Shown: in pieces, positions 1,935-8,502 of the stretch
Layout of the letters: every line of letters begins with the position of its first letter
Position numbering within the stretch: position 1 is the stretch's first letter
Assembly (NCBI RefSeq): GCF_006538745.1
Contig: NZ_BJLR01000030.1
Location: 124,001-188,000 of the forward strand
Direction: 5' to 3'
Length of the DNA stretch: 64,000 nt
DNA from: Cellulomonas cellasea
Lineage (GTDB): Bacteria; Actinomycetota; Actinomycetes; Actinomycetales; Cellulomonadaceae
Translations under genes and position numbers: made by a program
Notes under the pieces: generated by a model
What the model was told of the DNA's origin: nothing
Seen by the model: only the letters and a program-made list of their open reading frames with translations
Database searches by the model: none

Positions 1935-2575
1935 GAGGTGACTCCCAGCCACTTCTCGAAGGGCAACGGTCCGGCCGGCTGGACGGCCGGGTCGAACAGG
2001 GGCGTGTAGCCGGTGTGCAGGTACAGCGCGGCGGCCTCGGGCTGCCGCGGTCCTGTCGTGAGGTAGACCCGCGCGTAACCGGCGCGCGCGGCACGCTCCT
2101 CGAGCTCGGCGAGGACGACGCGCGCGAGCCCCCGGCGGCGGTGCGCGCTCGCGGTCCAGATGCGCTTGAGCTCGGCCGTCGCGACCACGGGCGTGGCGTC
2201 CGCCGCGCGGGCGTCCGCCCGGGCCAGCCGGCCGGCGTCCCCGAGCTCGGGCTCGACGCGGCGGCGGAACGCGCCGCCGGCGACCGGGAGTCCGTCCTCG
2301 AGCACGAGGACGAGCTCGCCGTCCGGCGCCGCGAACTCGTGCGCCGGGTAGCGGGCCATCTCGGCGCGCAGCGCGTCGACCCCGAAGTGCTCGGCGTACC
2401 GCGTCGCGTACTCGTGCGCGAGCTCGTCGAGGAGGGGGCGCACGAGCGGGTCGTCGAGGAGCACCGACCGCACCTCGCGCACCGCTCCGGCGCTCGCCCC
2501 GCCGGTCGCCCCGGTGGGCCGGCCGGCTGCCGGTTCGCCGGGGACGCGCGCCGGGCGGGTCGTGGTCGCGGTCAC
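1931..2575 (-). CDS. GNAT family N-acetyltransferase
   Basis: Predicted acetyl-CoA-dependent N-acetyltransferase, 214 residues. The acetyl-CoA binding motif A is visible as AHRRRGLARVVL, followed by the beta5/alpha4 region ARVYLTTGPRQPEAAALYLHTGY and a C-terminal FDP...PFEKWL strand. GTG at 2575 overlaps the DUF1684 stop (GTGA) and the stop overlaps the permease start, so it lies in the middle of a coupled operon. In Bacillus, GNAT enzymes are linked to flavin monooxygenases and amino-acid ABC transporters in the ytm and yxe operons, where YxeL acetylates S-(2-succino)cysteine. A similar protecting-group role here is an inference from context, not from the sequence itself. Confidence 0.85.
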   Translation of the reverse strand: MTATTTRPARVPGEPAAGRPTGATGGASAGAVREVRSVLLDDPLVRPLLDELAHEYATRYAEHFGVDALRAEMARYPAHEFAAPDGELVLVLEDGLPVAGGAFRRRVEPELGDAGRLARADARAADATPVVATAELKRIWTASAHRRRGLARVVLAELEERAARAGYARVYLTTGPRQPEAAALYLHTGYTPLFDPAVQPAGPLPFEKWLGVTS

Positions 2576-3510
2576 CGGGCGGCCTCGGCGTGCGCGGCGC
2601 CCACGGCCCCGGCGACCACCCGGTGCGGCGCACGCTCCCCGACCTCGACCGCGTACGGCACGTGGTTGCCGGCGACGGGCGCCGGGCACGTGCCGTGGTC
2701 GCTGAACGCGAACGGCAGGTTGAGCAGCCGGTTCAGGTCGAGCCGCACGGTGGTCGCCGCGTCGGCCGGGCGCTCGACGTGCAGCACGCGCCACGGCGCG
2801 GTGCCGGGCGCCTCGTCGGTGAGCAGCAGCGTCGCGTCGGTGCCGCCGGGCGCGCCCGTGAGCCGCAGGGTCGTCACGGTGCCGCCGCGCACGAGGTCCA
2901 CCTCGCCGACGAGCGTCACGTGGTGCACGAGCCGCGGCTGCGCGGCGCCGACGGTCACCGGCTGCGGCTCGTCGTACCAGCGCACGGGGGCGTCGAGGAT
3001 CCAGGAGGCGTCGTACGGGAACGTCGCGACGCCGTCGAAGCCGAGCCGCGCGGGCGCCCAGGCGTCCCGCAGCCGCAGCGCGTCGCGCCCCGTCCGGCGC
3101 ACGAGCTCGACCGCGACCTCGGCGGGCTCGCCCCGCGGGTCGTCGGCCGCGCGGCCGGCCGGGCGGAAGCGCGCGACGACCTGCGAGCCCCCCTCCTGGA
3201 CCGCGAAGTCGGCGGTCCCGTCGAGCGCGTCGGCGGCGCCCGTCAGGACCAGCCCGTCCGCGCGCTGCGCGAGCAGGTGCACGTGGCCGGCCGGGTCGGT
3301 CCACCACGTGCCGGGGACCCCCTCGACGGCCGACGGCCGCGACGCGAGCCAGCGCAGGGCGACCGGGGTCAGCCAGCCGTGCGGCTCCGCGAGCGCCCGC
3401 TCGCGCTCAGCACGCCACCGGGTCCACGCGAGCGGGGCGCCGGGGCGCGGGTCGTCGGGGTCGGGGGGCGTGCCCGTCGTCGTGCCGGGTCGCGTCGTGG
3501 TGCTCGTCAT
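2572..3510 (-). CDS. DUF1684 family protein
   Basis: 312-residue cytoplasmic protein of the DUF1684 family, whose biochemical function is unknown. The family hallmarks are an N-terminal W..ER...L..P.GWL segment and the C-terminal LDLNRLLNLPFAFSDHGTCP...NHVPYAVEVGE block, both visible here. A purine-rich stretch GAGAGGA lies 7-13 bases before the ATG at 3510, so this gene has its own ribosome site, while its end overlaps the next gene by 4 bases. DUF1684 genes often lie beside flavin monooxygenases and ABC transporters, as here. No catalytic residues can be assigned. Confidence 0.88.
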   Translation of the reverse strand: MTSTTTRPGTTTGTPPDPDDPRPGAPLAWTRWRAERERALAEPHGWLTPVALRWLASRPSAVEGVPGTWWTDPAGHVHLLAQRADGLVLTGAADALDGTADFAVQEGGSQVVARFRPAGRAADDPRGEPAEVAVELVRRTGRDALRLRDAWAPARLGFDGVATFPYDASWILDAPVRWYDEPQPVTVGAAQPRLVHHVTLVGEVDLVRGGTVTTLRLTGAPGGTDATLLLTDEAPGTAPWRVLHVERPADAATTVRLDLNRLLNLPFAFSDHGTCPAPVAGNHVPYAVEVGERAPHRVVAGAVGAAHAEAAR

Positions 3511-3538: not shown

Positions 3539-4936
3539 TCAGCCGACGAGCGCCGCGGCGGCGCGCTCCGGGTCGGTCGCGCGCGGGCGGGTCGTGGCCG
3601 GGCGGGCGAGGCCGAGGTGGTCGCGCAGCGTCGGGCCGGCGTACTCGGTGCGGAACGAGCCGCGCTCCTGCAGCAGCGGGACGACCCGGTCGAGCACGTC
3701 GTCGAGCCCGCCGGGCGTCAGGTGCGGCACGAGGATGAAGCCGTCGCTCGCGTCGGCCTGCACGAAGCGGTCGAGCTCGTCCGCCACGTGCTGCGCGGTC
3801 CCGACGAACGACCCGCGCGACGTGACCTCGATGACGAGCTCGCGGATGGACCAGCCGTTCGCCGCCGCCCGCGCGCGCCACTCGGCCACGACGGGGCGGG
3901 GGTCCTTGACGTGCCGGACCCGCCCCCGCGTGATGCCGTCGGCCTGCGGGTCCGGCTCGACGTCCGGCAGCGGGCCCTCGGGGTCGTACGCGGTGAGGTC
4001 CGTGCCCCAGACCTGCTCGAGGAAGGCGATCGCGGTCGGCCCCGGCACCTGCTGGAGCCGGATCTCCCGCGCGCGCTCGCGGGCCTCGGCGTCGGTGTCC
4101 CCGAGCACGACGGTCGTCGCGGGCAGGATCTTGAGGGAACCCGCGGGGCGTCCCGCGGCCTCGAGGCGCGTGGCGACGTCCCGGTAGAACGCCTGTCCCG
4201 CCTCGAACGTCGAGTGCATCGAGAAGATGACGTCGGCGGTCCGGGCCGCGAAGTCCCGGCCCTCGGGCGAGTCGCCCGCCTGGAACAGCACCGGGTGGCC
4301 CTGCGGCCCGCGCGGCGTCGTGAACTCTCCGCGCACGTCGAAGTGGCGCCCGTGGTGCTCGACGGGGTGCACCGCGCCCGGGCGCAGGAACACGCCGGCC
4401 TCGGTGTCCGCGACCACCGCGTCGTCGTCCCACGAGTCCCACAGGGCCCGCGCGACCTCGACGAGCTCCGCGGCACGCTCGTAGCGCTCGGCGTAGGGCA
4501 GGAACCCGCCGCGCCGGAAGTTGGCGCCCGTGAACGCGTCCGGCGACGTCACGAGGTTCCACGCCGCACGGCCGCCCGAGAGGATGTCGAGCGTGGCGAA
4601 CTGCCGCGCGAGCTCCCACGGCTCGTTGAAGGTCGTGCTGATCGTCCCCGCGAGCCCGAGCCGCTCGGTCACCGCCGCGAGCGCGGCCAGCACCGGCAGC
4701 GTGTCGGGTCGCCCGACGACGTCGAGGTCGTGGATGAGCCCCTTGTGCTCGCGCAGCCGCAGGCCCTCCGCGAGGAAGAAGAAGTCGAGCTTCGCCGCCT
4801 CGGCCCGCCGCGCGAGGTGCTCGAACGACGCGAAGTCGATCTGGCTGCCCGAGCGGGGGTCGGTCCAGACGGTCGTGCTGTTGACGCCCGGGAAGTGGAT
4901 GCCGAGGTGGATCTGCTTGCGGGGCCCCTTCGTCAT
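3539..4936 (-). CDS. NtaA/SnaA/DszA-family flavin-dependent monooxygenase
   Basis: FMN-dependent monooxygenase of the bacterial luciferase superfamily, NtaA/SnaA/DszA/YtnJ branch, 465 residues (usual size about 440-470). Seen: N-terminal KQIHLGIHFPGVNSTTVWTDP typical of the branch, the SGGRAAWNLVTS block (about 135-150) that contributes to the FMN site, PVLFQAGDSPEGRDFAA and the C-terminal LRDHLGL. Enzymes of this branch cleave C-S or C-N bonds using reduced flavin supplied by a separate reductase, which is not in the window. ATG at 4936 is preferred; an in-frame GTG at 4945 overlaps the previous gene's stop (GTGA) and is a real alternative. Likely role: oxidative release of sulfur from an organosulfur or modified cysteine substrate (inference). 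Confidence 0.9.
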   Translation of the reverse strand: MTKGPRKQIHLGIHFPGVNSTTVWTDPRSGSQIDFASFEHLARRAEAAKLDFFFLAEGLRLREHKGLIHDLDVVGRPDTLPVLAALAAVTERLGLAGTISTTFNEPWELARQFATLDILSGGRAAWNLVTSPDAFTGANFRRGGFLPYAERYERAAELVEVARALWDSWDDDAVVADTEAGVFLRPGAVHPVEHHGRHFDVRGEFTTPRGPQGHPVLFQAGDSPEGRDFAARTADVIFSMHSTFEAGQAFYRDVATRLEAAGRPAGSLKILPATTVVLGDTDAEARERAREIRLQQVPGPTAIAFLEQVWGTDLTAYDPEGPLPDVEPDPQADGITRGRVRHVKDPRPVVAEWRARAAANGWSIRELVIEVTSRGSFVGTAQHVADELDRFVQADASDGFILVPHLTPGGLDDVLDRVVPLLQERGSFRTEYAGPTLRDHLGLARPATTRPRATDPERAAAALVG

Positions 4937-4941
4937 CGCGG

Positions 4942-6105
4942 TCACGCGATCGCAGCGGAGAAGCGGTTCGCGGGCCGGCGCAGGTTCAGCGTGTCGCGGA
5001 ACGTCGTGCCGGGGTACGCGGAGCGGAAGAGCCCGCCGGCGCGCAGCCGCGGGACGACCTCGTCGACGATCTGGGCGACGTCGGTGTGCAGCGACGCGGG
5101 GCGCAGCGTGAAGCCGTCGGCCGCCCCGGTCTCGGTCCAGTCCTGCACGAGCTGGGCGAGCCCGCGGGCCGTGCCGACGTGCGCGAACGAGCCGGTCTCC
5201 CAGCGCGTGCCCTCGAGCGACTGGAGCAGGTCGAGGCGCGCCTGGGCGCTCGCCTCGTCGGGGCCGAGGACCACGAGCGCGTCGACGAGCACGCGCAGGG
5301 ACCCGGGGTCGCGCCCGGCCTCGGCGGCGGCCGCGCGGACCTCGGCGCGCCGGGCGGCCGCGTCGGACTGGCTCGTGGCCCGGATGCGCACGACGTCGGC
5401 GTGCCGGGCGGCCAGCGCGAGGGAGGCGGGCGACTGCGCGCGCACGACGACCGGCGGCTGCCCCTGCGGCGAGCGCGGCGTGATCGACGGGCCCTTCACG
5501 GCGAAGTGGATGCCGTCGTGGTCGACGTAGTGCAGCTTGGAGCGGTCCACGAACCGGTGCGTCGCGACGTCGCGGATCTCGGCGTCGTCCTCCCAGCTGT
5601 CCCAGAGCCGGCGCACGATCTCGACCGCCTCGTCTGCCTCCGCGACCGCGTCGGCCTCGCTCTGCGCGGGCTTGCGTCCGAACGCCGCCGCGACCTCGTC
5701 GGTCGTGGACCAGCCGACCTGCCACGCCGCCCGGCCGCCGCTCGCGTGGTCGACCGTCTGGATCGCCTTCGAGACGTGGAACGGCTCGGTGTGCGTCGTG
5801 TCGACGGTCGCGACGAGCCCGATGCCGCGCGAGCGCGGTGCGAGTCGCGCGGCCACGAGCACCGCGTCGAGGCGTCCGCGCAGCGTCGTGTCGCGGCTCG
5901 GCTGGAGCGCGAACGCGTCGTCGAGCAGGACGAAGTCGAGCGCACCACGCTGGGCGGTCTCGACGAGCTCGACGAGCCGCTCGGGGTCGAACAGCCGGCG
6001 GGCCTCGGAGCCGACCGTGCGCCACGCGGCGGGGTGCGCGCCGGCGTCGGACAGGTCGAGCCCCAGGTGCACGGGCGGGTTCGCGGTGGGGTCGGGGCGA
6101 GGCAT
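4942..6105 (-). CDS. NtaA-like LLM-class flavin-dependent oxidoreductase, short form
   Basis: Second luciferase-like enzyme of the operon, 387 residues, about 80 shorter than its downstream partner. The FMN-site block is conserved as HASGGRAAWQVGWSTTDE, the AVEIVRRLWDSWEDDAEI segment parallels the partner's ALWDSWDDDAVV, and the C-terminus TTFRDTLNLRRP is equivalent to the partner's LRDHLGL. This suggests an old duplication. ATG at 6105 has a GGAACG element upstream and no start further 5' shows similarity. About 190 bases of structured leader DNA separate it from a cysteine-rich leader peptide at 6299-6406. Substrate unknown; a role in organosulfur oxidation is inferred. Confidence 0.87.
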   Translation of the reverse strand: MPRPDPTANPPVHLGLDLSDAGAHPAAWRTVGSEARRLFDPERLVELVETAQRGALDFVLLDDAFALQPSRDTTLRGRLDAVLVAARLAPRSRGIGLVATVDTTHTEPFHVSKAIQTVDHASGGRAAWQVGWSTTDEVAAAFGRKPAQSEADAVAEADEAVEIVRRLWDSWEDDAEIRDVATHRFVDRSKLHYVDHDGIHFAVKGPSITPRSPQGQPPVVVRAQSPASLALAARHADVVRIRATSQSDAAARRAEVRAAAAEAGRDPGSLRVLVDALVVLGPDEASAQARLDLLQSLEGTRWETGSFAHVGTARGLAQLVQDWTETGAADGFTLRPASLHTDVAQIVDEVVPRLRAGGLFRSAYPGTTFRDTLNLRRPANRFSAAIA

Positions 6106-6209
6106 GGGCGTTCCGTTCTGCGGGTGCGGGCACGCCGGCGGGCACGCCGGTGGGGCGCGGACCGAGGGGCGTACGGGTCGACCGCTGAGCACGCGAGGGC
6201 GCGCGGTGG

Positions 6210-6244
6210 CACGTCGCGACGGGCAGCGAGGTGCCCGTGACGTG
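6210..6244 (-). promoter_or_regulatory. Strong mRNA hairpin between leader peptide and first structural gene
   Basis: The minus-strand transcript can fold CACGTC-ACGGGCA with TGCCCGT-cgc-GACGTG around a 6-base CCTCGC loop, a 13-bp stem with one 3-base bulge. It lies 54 bases after the leader stop and about 105 bases before the first structural ATG. No U-tract follows, so it may be a pause, an anti-terminator partner or a Rho-related element rather than a classic terminator. Confidence 0.5.
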
Positions 6245-6260
6245 TCAGCGGGAGGGGTGC

Positions 6261-6278
6261 GGGCGGTCAGTGCCGCCC
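6261..6278 (-). promoter_or_regulatory. Short GC hairpin after the leader stop codon
   Basis: GGGCGG and CCGCCC are separated by a 6-base loop, 20-38 bases downstream of the leader stop in the minus-strand transcript. Together with the hairpins at 6210-6244 and 6356-6377 it makes the leader region capable of alternative folds, as expected for attenuation. Functional status is inferred only. Confidence 0.35.
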
Positions 6279-6298
6279 GGTCACGAGGAGAGCCGTGC

Positions 6299-6406
6299 TC
6301 AGACGAGCGCGCTGCGACAGCAGGTGAGCGCGCGGCTGCCACCCGGCGGACAACAGGACGTGCGCGGTCGCACGTCCGGTCCGGCGGCGGTGGGTCGCCC
6401 GCTCAT
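6299..6406 (-). CDS. Cysteine-rich leader peptide (putative Cys-responsive uORF)
   Basis: 35-codon reading frame from ATG at 6406 to TGA at 6299. It has two Cys-Cys pairs (residues 18-19 in RTSCCPPGG and 29-30 in RALTCCRSALV). An AAGGAG Shine-Dalgarno sequence (6415-6420) lies 8 bases before the ATG, one of the best ribosome sites in this part of the window, which argues that the frame is translated. It precedes two flavin monooxygenases and an amino-acid ABC transporter. In mycobacteria, poly-cysteine uORFs attenuate sulfur-acquisition operons according to cysteine supply; the same role is inferred here. No homology to a named family is claimed. Confidence 0.7.
   Translation of the reverse strand: MSGRPTAAGPDVRPRTSCCPPGGSRALTCCRSALV
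6356..6377 (-). repeat. Inverted repeat inside the Cys leader peptide
   Basis: Perfect 9-bp arms GGACGTGCG (6356-6364) and CGCACGTCC (6369-6377) around CGGT. It covers leader codons 10-17, immediately before the first Cys-Cys pair. A ribosome stalled at those Cys codons would keep this stem open, which is the geometry expected of a sensor hairpin. Confidence 0.5.
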
Positions 6407-6425
6407 CTCGTCGTCTCCTTCATCC

Positions 6426-6444
6426 GACCGGCACCGTGCCGGTC
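6426..6444. promoter_or_regulatory. Interrupted palindrome upstream of the leader ribosome site
   Basis: GACCGGCAC-C-GTGCCGGTC, 9-bp perfect arms with a single central base, 5 bases upstream of the AAGGAG of the leader peptide. It could be a repressor operator or a 5' UTR hairpin. The rest of the stretch 6445-6540 shows no gene and no convincing -35/-10 pair. Confidence 0.4.
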
Positions 6445-6540
6445 CGGTCGCGCATCGTTGCCGTGGGCGTCGCCGCTCACGACCAGGTCCTCACCCGGGG
6501 CACCCCGCCGTGCGGAGGGTTGCCGTCCAGCCAGCCGGGG

Positions 6541-7164
6541 CTACGCGCTGGAGCTCATGACCACCGCGGTCCGGGGACTGCGGTGCGGGGAAACTAGCAC
6601 CGTCACGTGAGCGGTCAACTGTTTCGCGGAAATGCTCAGATGCTGGACGTCGTGTCCACGGCCGCGGGCACGGCGACGCGACCCCGGGCGCGTCGTGGCG
6701 TCCGGGGTCGCGGGGTCGTCCCAGTGCTCGTAGAAGGCTCGGAGCACGGCGTTCGCGTGCCGCACGGTCCGCGGTTGGTACCGGTCGTCCAGGTACTGCT
6801 TCGGGGTGACGGGGTTGACCGTTCCAGCCGTGGCGACGGACGACGTGCGTCCGTCCGCACCGGGCTTGACGGCCGACCGGAGCCACAGCGAGTACTCGCG
6901 CCCGTCGTCGGGAGTCGCCTTGTCCCACTCGACACGTACGGCGCTGAGCCAGCGCCACCACCGCAGGAGGTCGTAGGCGCAGCTGCGCACGCTCCCGGGG
7001 CGGTTCCCTCGGGAAGTGAACTCGATGAGGAAATGCTCAACGGGTTCTACGGGACGGCCTACAGCATCAACGACGAGCCACGGCGACGGGCCGGCCACGT
7101 TGATGACTGCGCCCCAACACGGGAGCGTCAGCGTTCGAAGGTCTCGTGCAGCCGAACCGTGCAC
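6541..7164 (-). pseudogene. Tyrosine recombinase/integrase remnant, N-terminal part only
   Basis: Residues about 38-148 match the N-terminal SAM-like core-binding domain of actinobacterial phage-type integrases: FTSRGNRPGSVRS, YDLLRWWRWL, VKPGADGRTSSVATAGTVNP, KQYLDDRY.PRTVRHANAVLRAFYEHW. After about residue 148 (near 6720) the frame runs into unrelated Arg-rich sequence. The catalytic domain (R...HxxR...Y) is absent, so it cannot be an active recombinase. The nominal GTG start at 7164 is not trusted. No partner phage genes or att repeats were found nearby; read it as the scar of a lost element. Confidence 0.75.
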
Positions 7165-7623: not shown

Positions 7624-8502
7624 TCAGGTCCCGCTGGTGCGCAGGTCCGGCAGCAGGGGGCTTTGCGCGGTCGTCGAGCCGTCGGCCGACGTCACCGGGA
7701 ACGAACCGTAGACGGCGGTCACGTCGATGATGACGTGCGTCGTGGTGGGCGAGAAGACCCGGAGCGTCGGCCGGCCCTCGAAGAGCCCGACGGCCGTGAC
7801 GGCGGAGTTCGCGACGGTCTGGTTGGTGACGTAGTTGAGCGTCGAGGTCGTGGGCCGCGCGACCCCGTAGGGGAACAGGGTGATGTGGCCCGCGCCGACG
7901 GGCCCGGTCACCGTCACGTTGAGGAAGACGCTCGCCACGTCGAGGTCACCCGTCGCTGAGTCGAGTGCGACGTCGATGACTCCGCCGGCGACGAGTCGAC
8001 CGAGCGAGTCGACCGCCCCCGGCGTCTGCGCGACGATCGACACCCGCCGCACAGCATGCCGGGTGTCGAGCACACGCTTGGGCGCAGGCGCGTAGATCAT
8101 CGGCAGGTACGAGACGAGGTCCTGGAGGTCGAGGTTCGTCACGAGGTAGCCCTGCTCGACCCCCGTGCCGTCGCGGTCCAGGCCGATGAGCGGCCCCGCG
8201 GCGGTGTTCTTGATCTCACCGACCTGGGGGGTCCACCCGGCGGGGTCCGACGGCTCGAGGCGCAGGTGGGCGCCCGCGGAGTTCGCGAGCGAGAGGGTCG
8301 GCTCGGTGCTCGCCGTCGTGAGCCGCGTCCCGGCGGTGCCGGCGTCGGTCGCGCGTCCGGCGAGAACCGGGTCACCGGCCGCCGCGGAGGCGGGCGCCGA
8401 TCCCAGTGCCGTCGCCGCGGCTGCCCCTGCGACCGCGAAGCCACCCATCCGGAGCAGCCTGCGGCGGCTCACGTCCTGCGTGGTGGTGTCGTCAGTGCTC
8501 AT
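7624..8502 (-). CDS. Tat-exported cell-surface protein with RVLDTR-type domain
   Basis: 292 residues from ATG at 8502. The N-terminus SRRRLLRMGGFAVAGAAAATALG followed by ASA is a twin-arginine signal with a signal peptidase I site. The C-terminal two thirds contains the RVLDTR...VFLNVTVTGPVGAGHITLFPYG...STLNYVTNQTVANSAVTAVG...HVIIDVTAVYG pattern, a beta-rich module seen in many secreted actinobacterial wall proteins and amidases. There is no catalytic domain and no anchor, so it is probably released or wall-associated. Function unknown. It stands alone: degraded genes lie downstream and 286 bases of non-coding DNA upstream. Confidence 0.75.
   Translation of the reverse strand: MSTDDTTTQDVSRRRLLRMGGFAVAGAAAATALGSAPASAAAGDPVLAGRATDAGTAGTRLTTASTEPTLSLANSAGAHLRLEPSDPAGWTPQVGEIKNTAAGPLIGLDRDGTGVEQGYLVTNLDLQDLVSYLPMIYAPAPKRVLDTRHAVRRVSIVAQTPGAVDSLGRLVAGGVIDVALDSATGDLDVASVFLNVTVTGPVGAGHITLFPYGVARPTTSTLNYVTNQTVANSAVTAVGLFEGRPTLRVFSPTTTHVIIDVTAVYGSFPVTSADGSTTAQSPLLPDLRTSGT

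Follow-up and report, generated by a model that had tools for sequence, protein, structure and literature searches.

The operon leader described here is probably a two-stage sulfur sensor, in which a SAM-IV riboswitch would gate a Cys-sensing upstream open reading frame (uORF) and Rho would link this uORF to the operon that follows. It lies on the minus strand of a 64,000-nucleotide stretch of DNA from Cellulomonas cellasea (hereafter the window), where a SAM-IV aptamer is followed by the uORF, a C-rich spacer and the first gene of the operon, LLM1. These parts, with their order and spacing, could be read directly from the window and recur in related genomes, where the enrichment of Cys codons is seen as well.

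The uORF occupies positions 6299 to 6406 on the minus strand, exactly where a preliminary description of this DNA had placed a 35-codon frame with Cys pairs. Its translation from 6406 to 6299 is MSGRPTAAGPDVRPRTSCCPPGGSRALTCCRSALV, ending in ...SCCPPGGSRALTCCRSALV, as identified from the ORF listing and the comparison of related loci. The Cys codons are TGT TGT TGC TGT, and the last of them stands 5 codons before the stop. The strong AAGGAG site that had been claimed is likewise present, read from the sequence at 6420 to 6415 on the minus strand, 8 nt before the ATG at 6406, and serves as the putative Shine-Dalgarno (SD) sequence. Cys had also been called rare elsewhere in the window, in agreement with the ten window ORFs taken as genes, which contain 12 Cys in 4,357 codons, all of them TGC (UGU 0/12). 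The window peptide returned no NCBIfam family at E up to 1 and none at E up to 10, and neither it nor four related peptides matched Ms4527A, Ms5788A or NF042934 (NCBIfam, E up to 10). The observation of a Cys-rich leader ORF is confirmed as real.

What the preliminary description overlooked is a riboswitch aptamer just upstream, at 6562 to 6452 on the minus strand, so that the leader ORF appears as the second half of a tandem device. The aptamer is complete (model positions 1-116, 111 nt), scores 93.3 bits against a gathering cut-off of 38 for SAM-IV (RF00634), and is the sole Rfam match in the whole window at gathering thresholds; its covariance-model score and full length place it within the SAM-IV family. 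The uORF ATG stands 45 nt past the end of the aptamer on the same strand. Across the SAM-IV loci compared, uORFs start at a median of 33 nt past the aptamer (n=21) and directly controlled genes at 32 nt (67 loci); as the uORF starts where directly controlled genes start, SAM-IV could most simply control uORF translation. With a SAM-IV ahead of the leader, Cys is probably just one input out of two. In place of a leaderless poly-Cys uORF, the predicted 111-nt aptamer and an SD stand before the ATG.

Other elements around the aptamer are less distinct. A weak promoter-like sequence, TTGACC-16-TAGTTT, was read by eye at 6591 to 6618 on the minus strand, whereas a sigma-70 scan at 9/12 matches found no promoter at the leader. 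The sequence fits the nTGACn / TAnnnT form, which is reported for Streptomyces lividans in the accessible part of PMC8079986. A weak hairpin was predicted between the aptamer and the uORF SD (6425 to 6450, minus strand), and many relatives have a hairpin at this position with differing stem sequences. As an expression platform this hairpin was rejected, since such hairpins do not, on average, exceed mononucleotide shuffles in stability (mean z -0.6, with 9 of 36 below -1); the alignment of 13 aptamer-uORF linkers was too divergent for pair counting. An integrase-like ORF at 6541-7164 on the minus strand, which shares 22 nt at its 3' end with the aptamer, matched Phage_int_SAM_1 with 19.4 bits, under the 22.3 cut-off, and may be a fragment marking an insertion beside the operon.

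The operon itself is likely of a sulfur-scavenging type. Two NtaA-type monooxygenases and an amino-acid ABC transporter had been proposed downstream of the leader, and the corresponding domains were recovered as two TIGR03860 matches, an ABC permease, an ATPase and a family-3 binding protein. All genes lie on the minus strand. LLM1 (4942 to 6105, 387 aa, no Cys, Met only at the start) and LLM2 (3539 to 4936, 465 aa, no Cys, 2 Met) are putative NtaA/DmoA-family FMN monooxygenases, with TIGR03860 scores of 284.3 bits, narrowly above the cut-off of 279.7, and 435.1 bits, respectively. They are followed by a DUF1684 protein (2572 to 3510, domain match, 1 Cys, 1 Met), a GNAT acetyltransferase (1931 to 2650, PF00583, exact start uncertain), an ABC permease (BPD_transp_1, 777 to 1934, domain match, start taken at MSTVSL) and an ABC_tran ATPase domain at approximately 211 to 684 (converted from residues 471-628 of L271:14984-17095), whose gene runs to about the left edge of the window. 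The left flank beyond the window contains a family-3 amino-acid-type binding protein (SBP_bac_3), a DAO oxidoreductase and further luciferase-like genes. The NtaA/DmoA monooxygenases, GNAT and amino-acid ABC domains suggest the use of organosulfur compounds. Together, LLM1, LLM2 and the DUF1684 protein contain only 1 Cys and 4 Met in their 1,164 residues, a marked sulfur sparing that would be in line with genes used under sulfur shortage. The combination of GNAT, an amino-acid ABC transporter and two LLM monooxygenases presumably resembles the S-alkylcysteine salvage operons of B. subtilis (ytm/yxe), which would yield cysteine.

The arrangement recurs widely before LLM1. Homologues of this gene (E up to 1e-40) were present in 99 of the 221 genomes of the window's family, from which 50 loci were sampled (L045-L074 and L155-L174; these are the first 51 table rows, with the window included and only G061:C127 omitted). 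By pattern search, 36 of the 50 loci contain the SAM-IV core, and a covariance model built from 24 SAM-IV sequences, including that of the window, returned the same 36 in sense orientation, plus L168, where the element faces away. An SD-led short ORF stands behind the sense SAM-IV in all 36 of these loci, with uORFs chosen on the requirement of an SD-like motif of at least 4 bases. The 36 peptides are all distinct and 17 to 50 aa long, as exemplified by MNGRAPGRTVVLSCRCRPCPPSCRAC, MSSDGRPTTALWILRPCCPGACCR and ...ALSTCCR; at least two Cys occur in 34 of them and a single Cys in the other 2, CCR-stop ends 19, CC is found in 25, and CC or CxC in 31. Furthermore, a more permissive search, up to 800 nt upstream, found an SD-led short ORF with at least two Cys at 13 of the 14 LLM1 loci without a sense SAM-IV, including ...RMCCSPGRPVVPGRVCC and variants in six loci of one genus as well as MTVASMPRSCCRCCR; at L169, no acceptable Cys uORF was found over the same distance. 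Oerskovia douganii (L076) likewise carries a Cys uORF without a sense SAM-IV. Since the Cys uORF stands alone at these 13 loci, the riboswitch looks like a second layer.

Cys codons are strongly concentrated in these short frames. They make up 127 of the 1,183 codons of the 36 uORFs (10.7%; 99 UGU and 28 UGC), or 123 of 1,148 (96 UGU) with the window copy excluded, while the other two frames of the same DNA contain 3.3% and 1.2% Cys, and LLM1, taken over 24 of the 36 loci, contains 1 Cys in 9,215 codons. The rare codon UGU accounts for 99 of the 127 Cys codons in the uORFs, whereas short ORFs arising by chance in the surveyed loci use it for 37% of theirs. The last Cys lies 0-3 codons from the stop in 34 of the 36 uORFs, the window copy being one of the two exceptions.

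How the uORF might be coupled to the operon was considered from the spacer and from predicted folds. The 193-nt spacer between the uORF stop and LLM1 (6106 to 6298, minus strand; C 48%, G 30%) is a candidate Rho-loading region, and its C minus G value lies at the 99.5th percentile for 190-nt stretches of its own strand and at the 98.9th of the other. The 36 spacers range from 92 to 332 nt, and C exceeds G in every one of them (mean 51% C, 29% G), with C minus G of at least 0.17 in the 24 of 24 spacers examined. LLM1 coding sequences also contain more C than G in 24 of 24 cases, but to a lesser degree (0.41 vs 0.35, against 0.51 vs 0.29 in the spacer). The C-rich, G-poor and putatively untranslated stretch expected of a Rho-dependent attenuator is present. 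A scan of 5900-6800 found no intrinsic terminator, and inspection by eye of the minimum free energy folds of 14 leaders revealed no recognisable shared terminator or anti-terminator.

A different coupling, which we consider unlikely, would be a translational attenuator of the mycobacterial type, in which a ribosome stalled on the Cys codons melts a structure hiding the ribosome-binding site (RBS) of LLM1, with SAM-IV merely modulating this effect. Such a mechanism would suit the closeness of the Cys codons to the uORF end, and translation attenuation has been reported for cysteine genes of M. smegmatis (work cited in the accessible text of PMC13236596). However, when 18 leaders were folded with and without a ribosome footprint at the first Cys, the last Cys or the stop, the gene RBS was paired at 0.33-0.62 and this value shifted by at most about 0.12, in either direction, so that RBS masking was rejected; moreover, the pairing partners of the RBS differ among leaders, and the spacers are 92-332 nt long. 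With neither a terminator nor a ribosome-responsive RBS mask detected, base composition is what supports a link between stalling and the operon, and the C-rich spacer makes Rho-dependent attenuation the preferred link. In this Rho-dependent form, terminator or RBS-mask structures would be unnecessary.

A two-stage sensor with a Rho-dependent link could work as follows. SAM bound to the aptamer would switch off the initiation of uORF translation. When SAM is low, the uORF would be translated, and the ribosome would run into a cluster of Cys codons, most of them UGU, shortly before the stop. With ample Cys-tRNA, the ribosome would finish and leave, the C-rich spacer would be exposed, and Rho would terminate transcription before LLM1; with scarce Cys-tRNA, the stalled ribosome would shield the leader, and the operon would be transcribed. 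The output would thus approximate a NOR gate, with the uptake/oxidation operon on only when SAM and cysteine are both low. SAM binding, uORF translation, stalling, Rho action and the sign of both inputs are what we infer from these parts, the signs being taken from how SAM riboswitches and amino-acid attenuators generally behave. The Cys-responsive attenuator put forward in the preliminary description stands in so far as SD-led Cys clusters recur, are mostly UGU and precede a sulfur-type operon, but the classical terminator and RBS-mask forms were not found, and the SAM-IV was missing from that proposal.

SAM-IV and Cys uORFs also occur together outside LLM1 loci. The window's genome contains four SAM-IV elements, one of which directly precedes a gene that we take from its start to be cysteine-desulfurase-like. 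A parallel for this placement in S. lividans is given in the available portion of PMC8079986. A second SAM-IV, 7 kb left of the window (L271, about 7636-7745, minus strand), is followed by GGAGG, by MRALHDATRRPVVHHAAPCCR-stop (TGT TGT CGC TGA; ...PCCR-stop) and by a peptide-type ABC permease; another (L004) is followed by a 19-codon ORF with one Cys, whose stop overlaps the next GTG start. Two sister species have a further SAM-IV followed by MAHWQCPDAPCVGCRRMLLVPRACR, in which all four Cys are UGU.

The association was quantified over 26 genomes with 120 SAM-IV matches, of which 119 had enough sequence and 117 yielded an SD-start within 115 nt. A strict rule (best SD-start within 115 nt opening a short ORF with at least two Cys, one of them within three codons of the stop) was satisfied at 19 of the 117 loci, compared with 3.5% at random positions (p 3e-8), and at 9 of 106 without the 11 LLM1 loci (p 0.009; 8 of the 9 at least half UGU), although both p values are optimistic since the genomes and loci are related. 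Four of these nine (L215, L221, L225 and L230) precede LLM genes by position. A looser test gave a mild excess, with at least two Cys in 9 of 22 short ORFs behind SAM-IV against 24% (996 of 4,144) of chance SD-led short ORFs.

Among 17 further genomes reached via named loci, 16 contained 29 SAM-IV matches, one of them under the cut-off, and 20 of the 29 are without a listed SD-led short ORF behind them. In Streptomyces sp. NBC_00620 (L147) the peptide behind SAM-IV is ...HIDLQRVAGALCRP and in Actinacidiphila paucisporea (L115) ...RRHIDLQRVAAALC..., in both cases before an LLM gene, and both peptides match NF042934 above the cut-off. In a Klenkia MAG, SAM-IV is followed by ...VIDLVRTDSALCR, in Rhodococcus (L277) by MMCCCCRRQTPDTPC... 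(MMCCCCRR...), and in the genome of Mycobacterium sp. DL99 (L282) by MYVSVNCWCLL...; the genes behind the latter two leaders are, as we assume from their starts, metC/metY-like, and the same tandem may therefore exist in Mycobacteriales. Sense SAM-IV elements were found at 5 of 80 named LLM-homologue loci under default filters (L075, L079, L115, L133 and L147). L075, from Cellulosimicrobium funkei, was taken as a member of the window's family from its near-identical leader; at L079 the SAM-IV belongs to another gene, presumably cysteine-desulfurase-like from its start; and at L133 no Cys uORF was found behind SAM-IV. Among distant LLM homologues, the pairing is thus exceptional. On the strand opposite its SAM-IV, L011 has a divergent short ORF, MSTSTNRRHGLSDVVFAAVARCRCC, with no riboswitch ahead and no NCBIfam match, which is likely a Cys leader peptide.

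These occurrences raise the possibility of a wider rule, which in our estimation is as open to being wrong as right: a serial gate from SAM-IV to a Cys-tRNA-sensing uORF might recur among actinobacteria as a device put together on several occasions from unrelated peptides, turning sulfur-scavenging operons on only when the methionine/SAM and cysteine arms are both low. The same even judgement covers the unrelated leader peptides themselves, namely the CCR-stop type of the window's family, the HIDLxR..ALC type of Streptomyces and relatives, and the MCCCCRR type of Rhodococcus before a metC/metY-like gene.

Another explanation, which we regard as improbable, is that the uORF is a mere landing place through which SAM-IV controls ribosome traffic, with effects on Rho or on downstream translation, and that its cysteines are not sensed. 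Ten SAM-IV loci (L196, L199, L201, L203, L204, L205, L209, L214, L222 and L264) would fit it, as they carry uORFs of 9-16 codons without Cys whose stop overlaps the start (ATGA or GTGA) of a gene of more than 300 codons; together with the ORF of L004, these are probably translational-coupling mini-ORFs. They imply that an action of SAM-IV on a uORF is not tied to Cys, and that the Cys type would be one of at least two. Furthermore, uORFs under riboswitch control for which no sensing role is known are described in the available parts of PMC12810186 and PMC11260477. Nevertheless, a landing place would leave unexplained both the Cys and UGU enrichment and the Cys uORFs at 13 of the 14 LLM1 loci without a sense SAM-IV.

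The manner in which the uORFs diverge also bears on what they do. Three clades comprise 24 of the 36 loci. Within them, the third codon position does not vary most, and the largest clade has 79 synonymous against 473 non-synonymous differences, a pattern that would be expected of a codon sensor. Coding-type conservation of the whole peptide was ruled out in the three clades by this dominance of non-synonymous differences. The preliminary description had proposed to look for conserved Cys pairs amid drift elsewhere; clustered Cys codons in an SD-led ORF do recur while other residues diverge, but the Cys columns are not invariant, with Cys set against another residue in 36 of 201, 26 of 125 and 34 of 72 pairwise comparisons in the three clades. 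The first residues are also alike within a clade, so kinship accounts for part of the likeness.

It is in turn very improbable that the product of the ORF is a functional small protein rich in Cys, such as a metal-binding one, made under sulfur limitation. The ORF's own SD, its recurrence and the CC or CxC motifs in 31 of the 36 peptides would agree with such a product, whereas the peptides vary in length from 17 to 50 aa, have little in common between clades except Cys and change mainly by non-synonymous substitutions, and spending cysteine on a protein during sulfur limitation makes little sense. As for a chance ORF of GC-rich DNA, four Cys had been called unlikely by chance, and the window statistics are weaker than was claimed, since only this frame among the 19 SD-led ORFs of 15-60 aa with a start codon in the window has at least four Cys, but 19 of 328 window ORFs of that size, this one included, do so without the SD filter. 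The window alone is therefore insufficient proof, and the comparative data supply it: position, SD and Cys codons recur in many species and a second copy exists in the same genome, by which chance is already refuted.

SAM-IV, Cys attenuators and riboswitch-controlled uORFs are each already known. A SAM-IV followed by a Cys-sensing uORF was not found described in the full-text papers searched, among which subscription papers are thinly covered, including the accessible parts of PMC9971707, PMC8079986, PMC2965389, PMC3890552, PMC8632094 and PMC1262725. Riboswitches and leader-peptide attenuators are usually seen as alternatives, whereas here the one seems to gate the other, and such an arrangement would detect the coincidence of signals from two branch points of sulfur metabolism. 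It would give riboswitch-controlled uORFs a concrete role, could serve as a natural part with two inputs, and leads one to expect unannotated sulfur-starvation operons, for which a SAM-IV with a UGU-rich short ORF behind it would be the search pattern.

Mycobacteria reportedly possess leaderless poly-cysteine uORF attenuators, said to have been described by Canestrari in 2020, which respond to Cys and stand before sulfur genes. As far as the available accounts of these uORFs (Ms4527A, Ms5788A) extend, they share with the window uORF a short ORF, clustered Cys codons, sulfur genes and an actinobacterial host; the window uORF differs in having an SD, a SAM-IV ahead, a monooxygenase/transporter operon and no RBS-masking fold. 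The preliminary description had already judged the peptide and its target to be different from the mycobacterial ones, which is borne out by the lack of a match to an NCBIfam leader family and by the SD and aptamer before the uORF. The NF042934 'putative leader peptide' of Streptomyces and relatives (HIDLxR...ALC) similarly has a Cys near the end of a short leader, and in L147 and L115 it also stands directly behind SAM-IV and before an LLM gene, as in the window. That type has an amino-acid motif that is conserved, whereas peptides of the window's type have nothing but Cys clusters in common and do not match NF042934. The S. lividans leader 'metL' (MSTTSDRTPATEATTTPGARCMCRRMCAF), annotated as methionine-dependent in Table 4 of PMC8079986, includes the cluster CMCRRMC and might sense Cys.

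Cys leader peptides of other operons offer closer parallels for individual features. According to the accessible text of PMC8632094, uORFC-8-2 before cysS in Rhodobacterales is a presumed ribosome-mediated attenuator with tandem Cys codons, as in the window, but it has an apparent intrinsic terminator, uses mostly UGC and belongs to another phylum, and no riboswitch is mentioned in that text. The Cys leader peptides of cys operons treated in the available part of PMC1262725 also have Cys near the stop and no terminator found, and Rho was proposed for them from pyrimidine-rich motifs; they precede other genes, no riboswitch is mentioned there, and their polyY is not conserved, whereas here C exceeds G in 36 of 36 spacers.

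On the side of the riboswitch, the window's leader resembles the Mbox-pe20 uORF (PMC12810186) and the uORFs of B12 riboswitches (PMC11260477), where, in the portions available, a riboswitch governs uORF translation; the Mbox of M. tuberculosis does so together with Rho-dependent termination (PMC12810186). The main Mbox termination site lies before the uORF, so that this precedent is partial (PMC12810186, available text). The same portions do not describe the Mbox and B12 uORFs as amino-acid sensors, while the window uORF seems to add an amino-acid-specific signal. Tandem riboswitch logic gates, such as SAM plus AdoCbl as NOR and T box plus ppGpp as AND (PMC5912903, in its accessible part), are alike in that one leader reads two related metabolic signals. 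In contrast to these gates, the second input here would be read by a translating ribosome whose loading is gated by the first, placing the two sensors in series.
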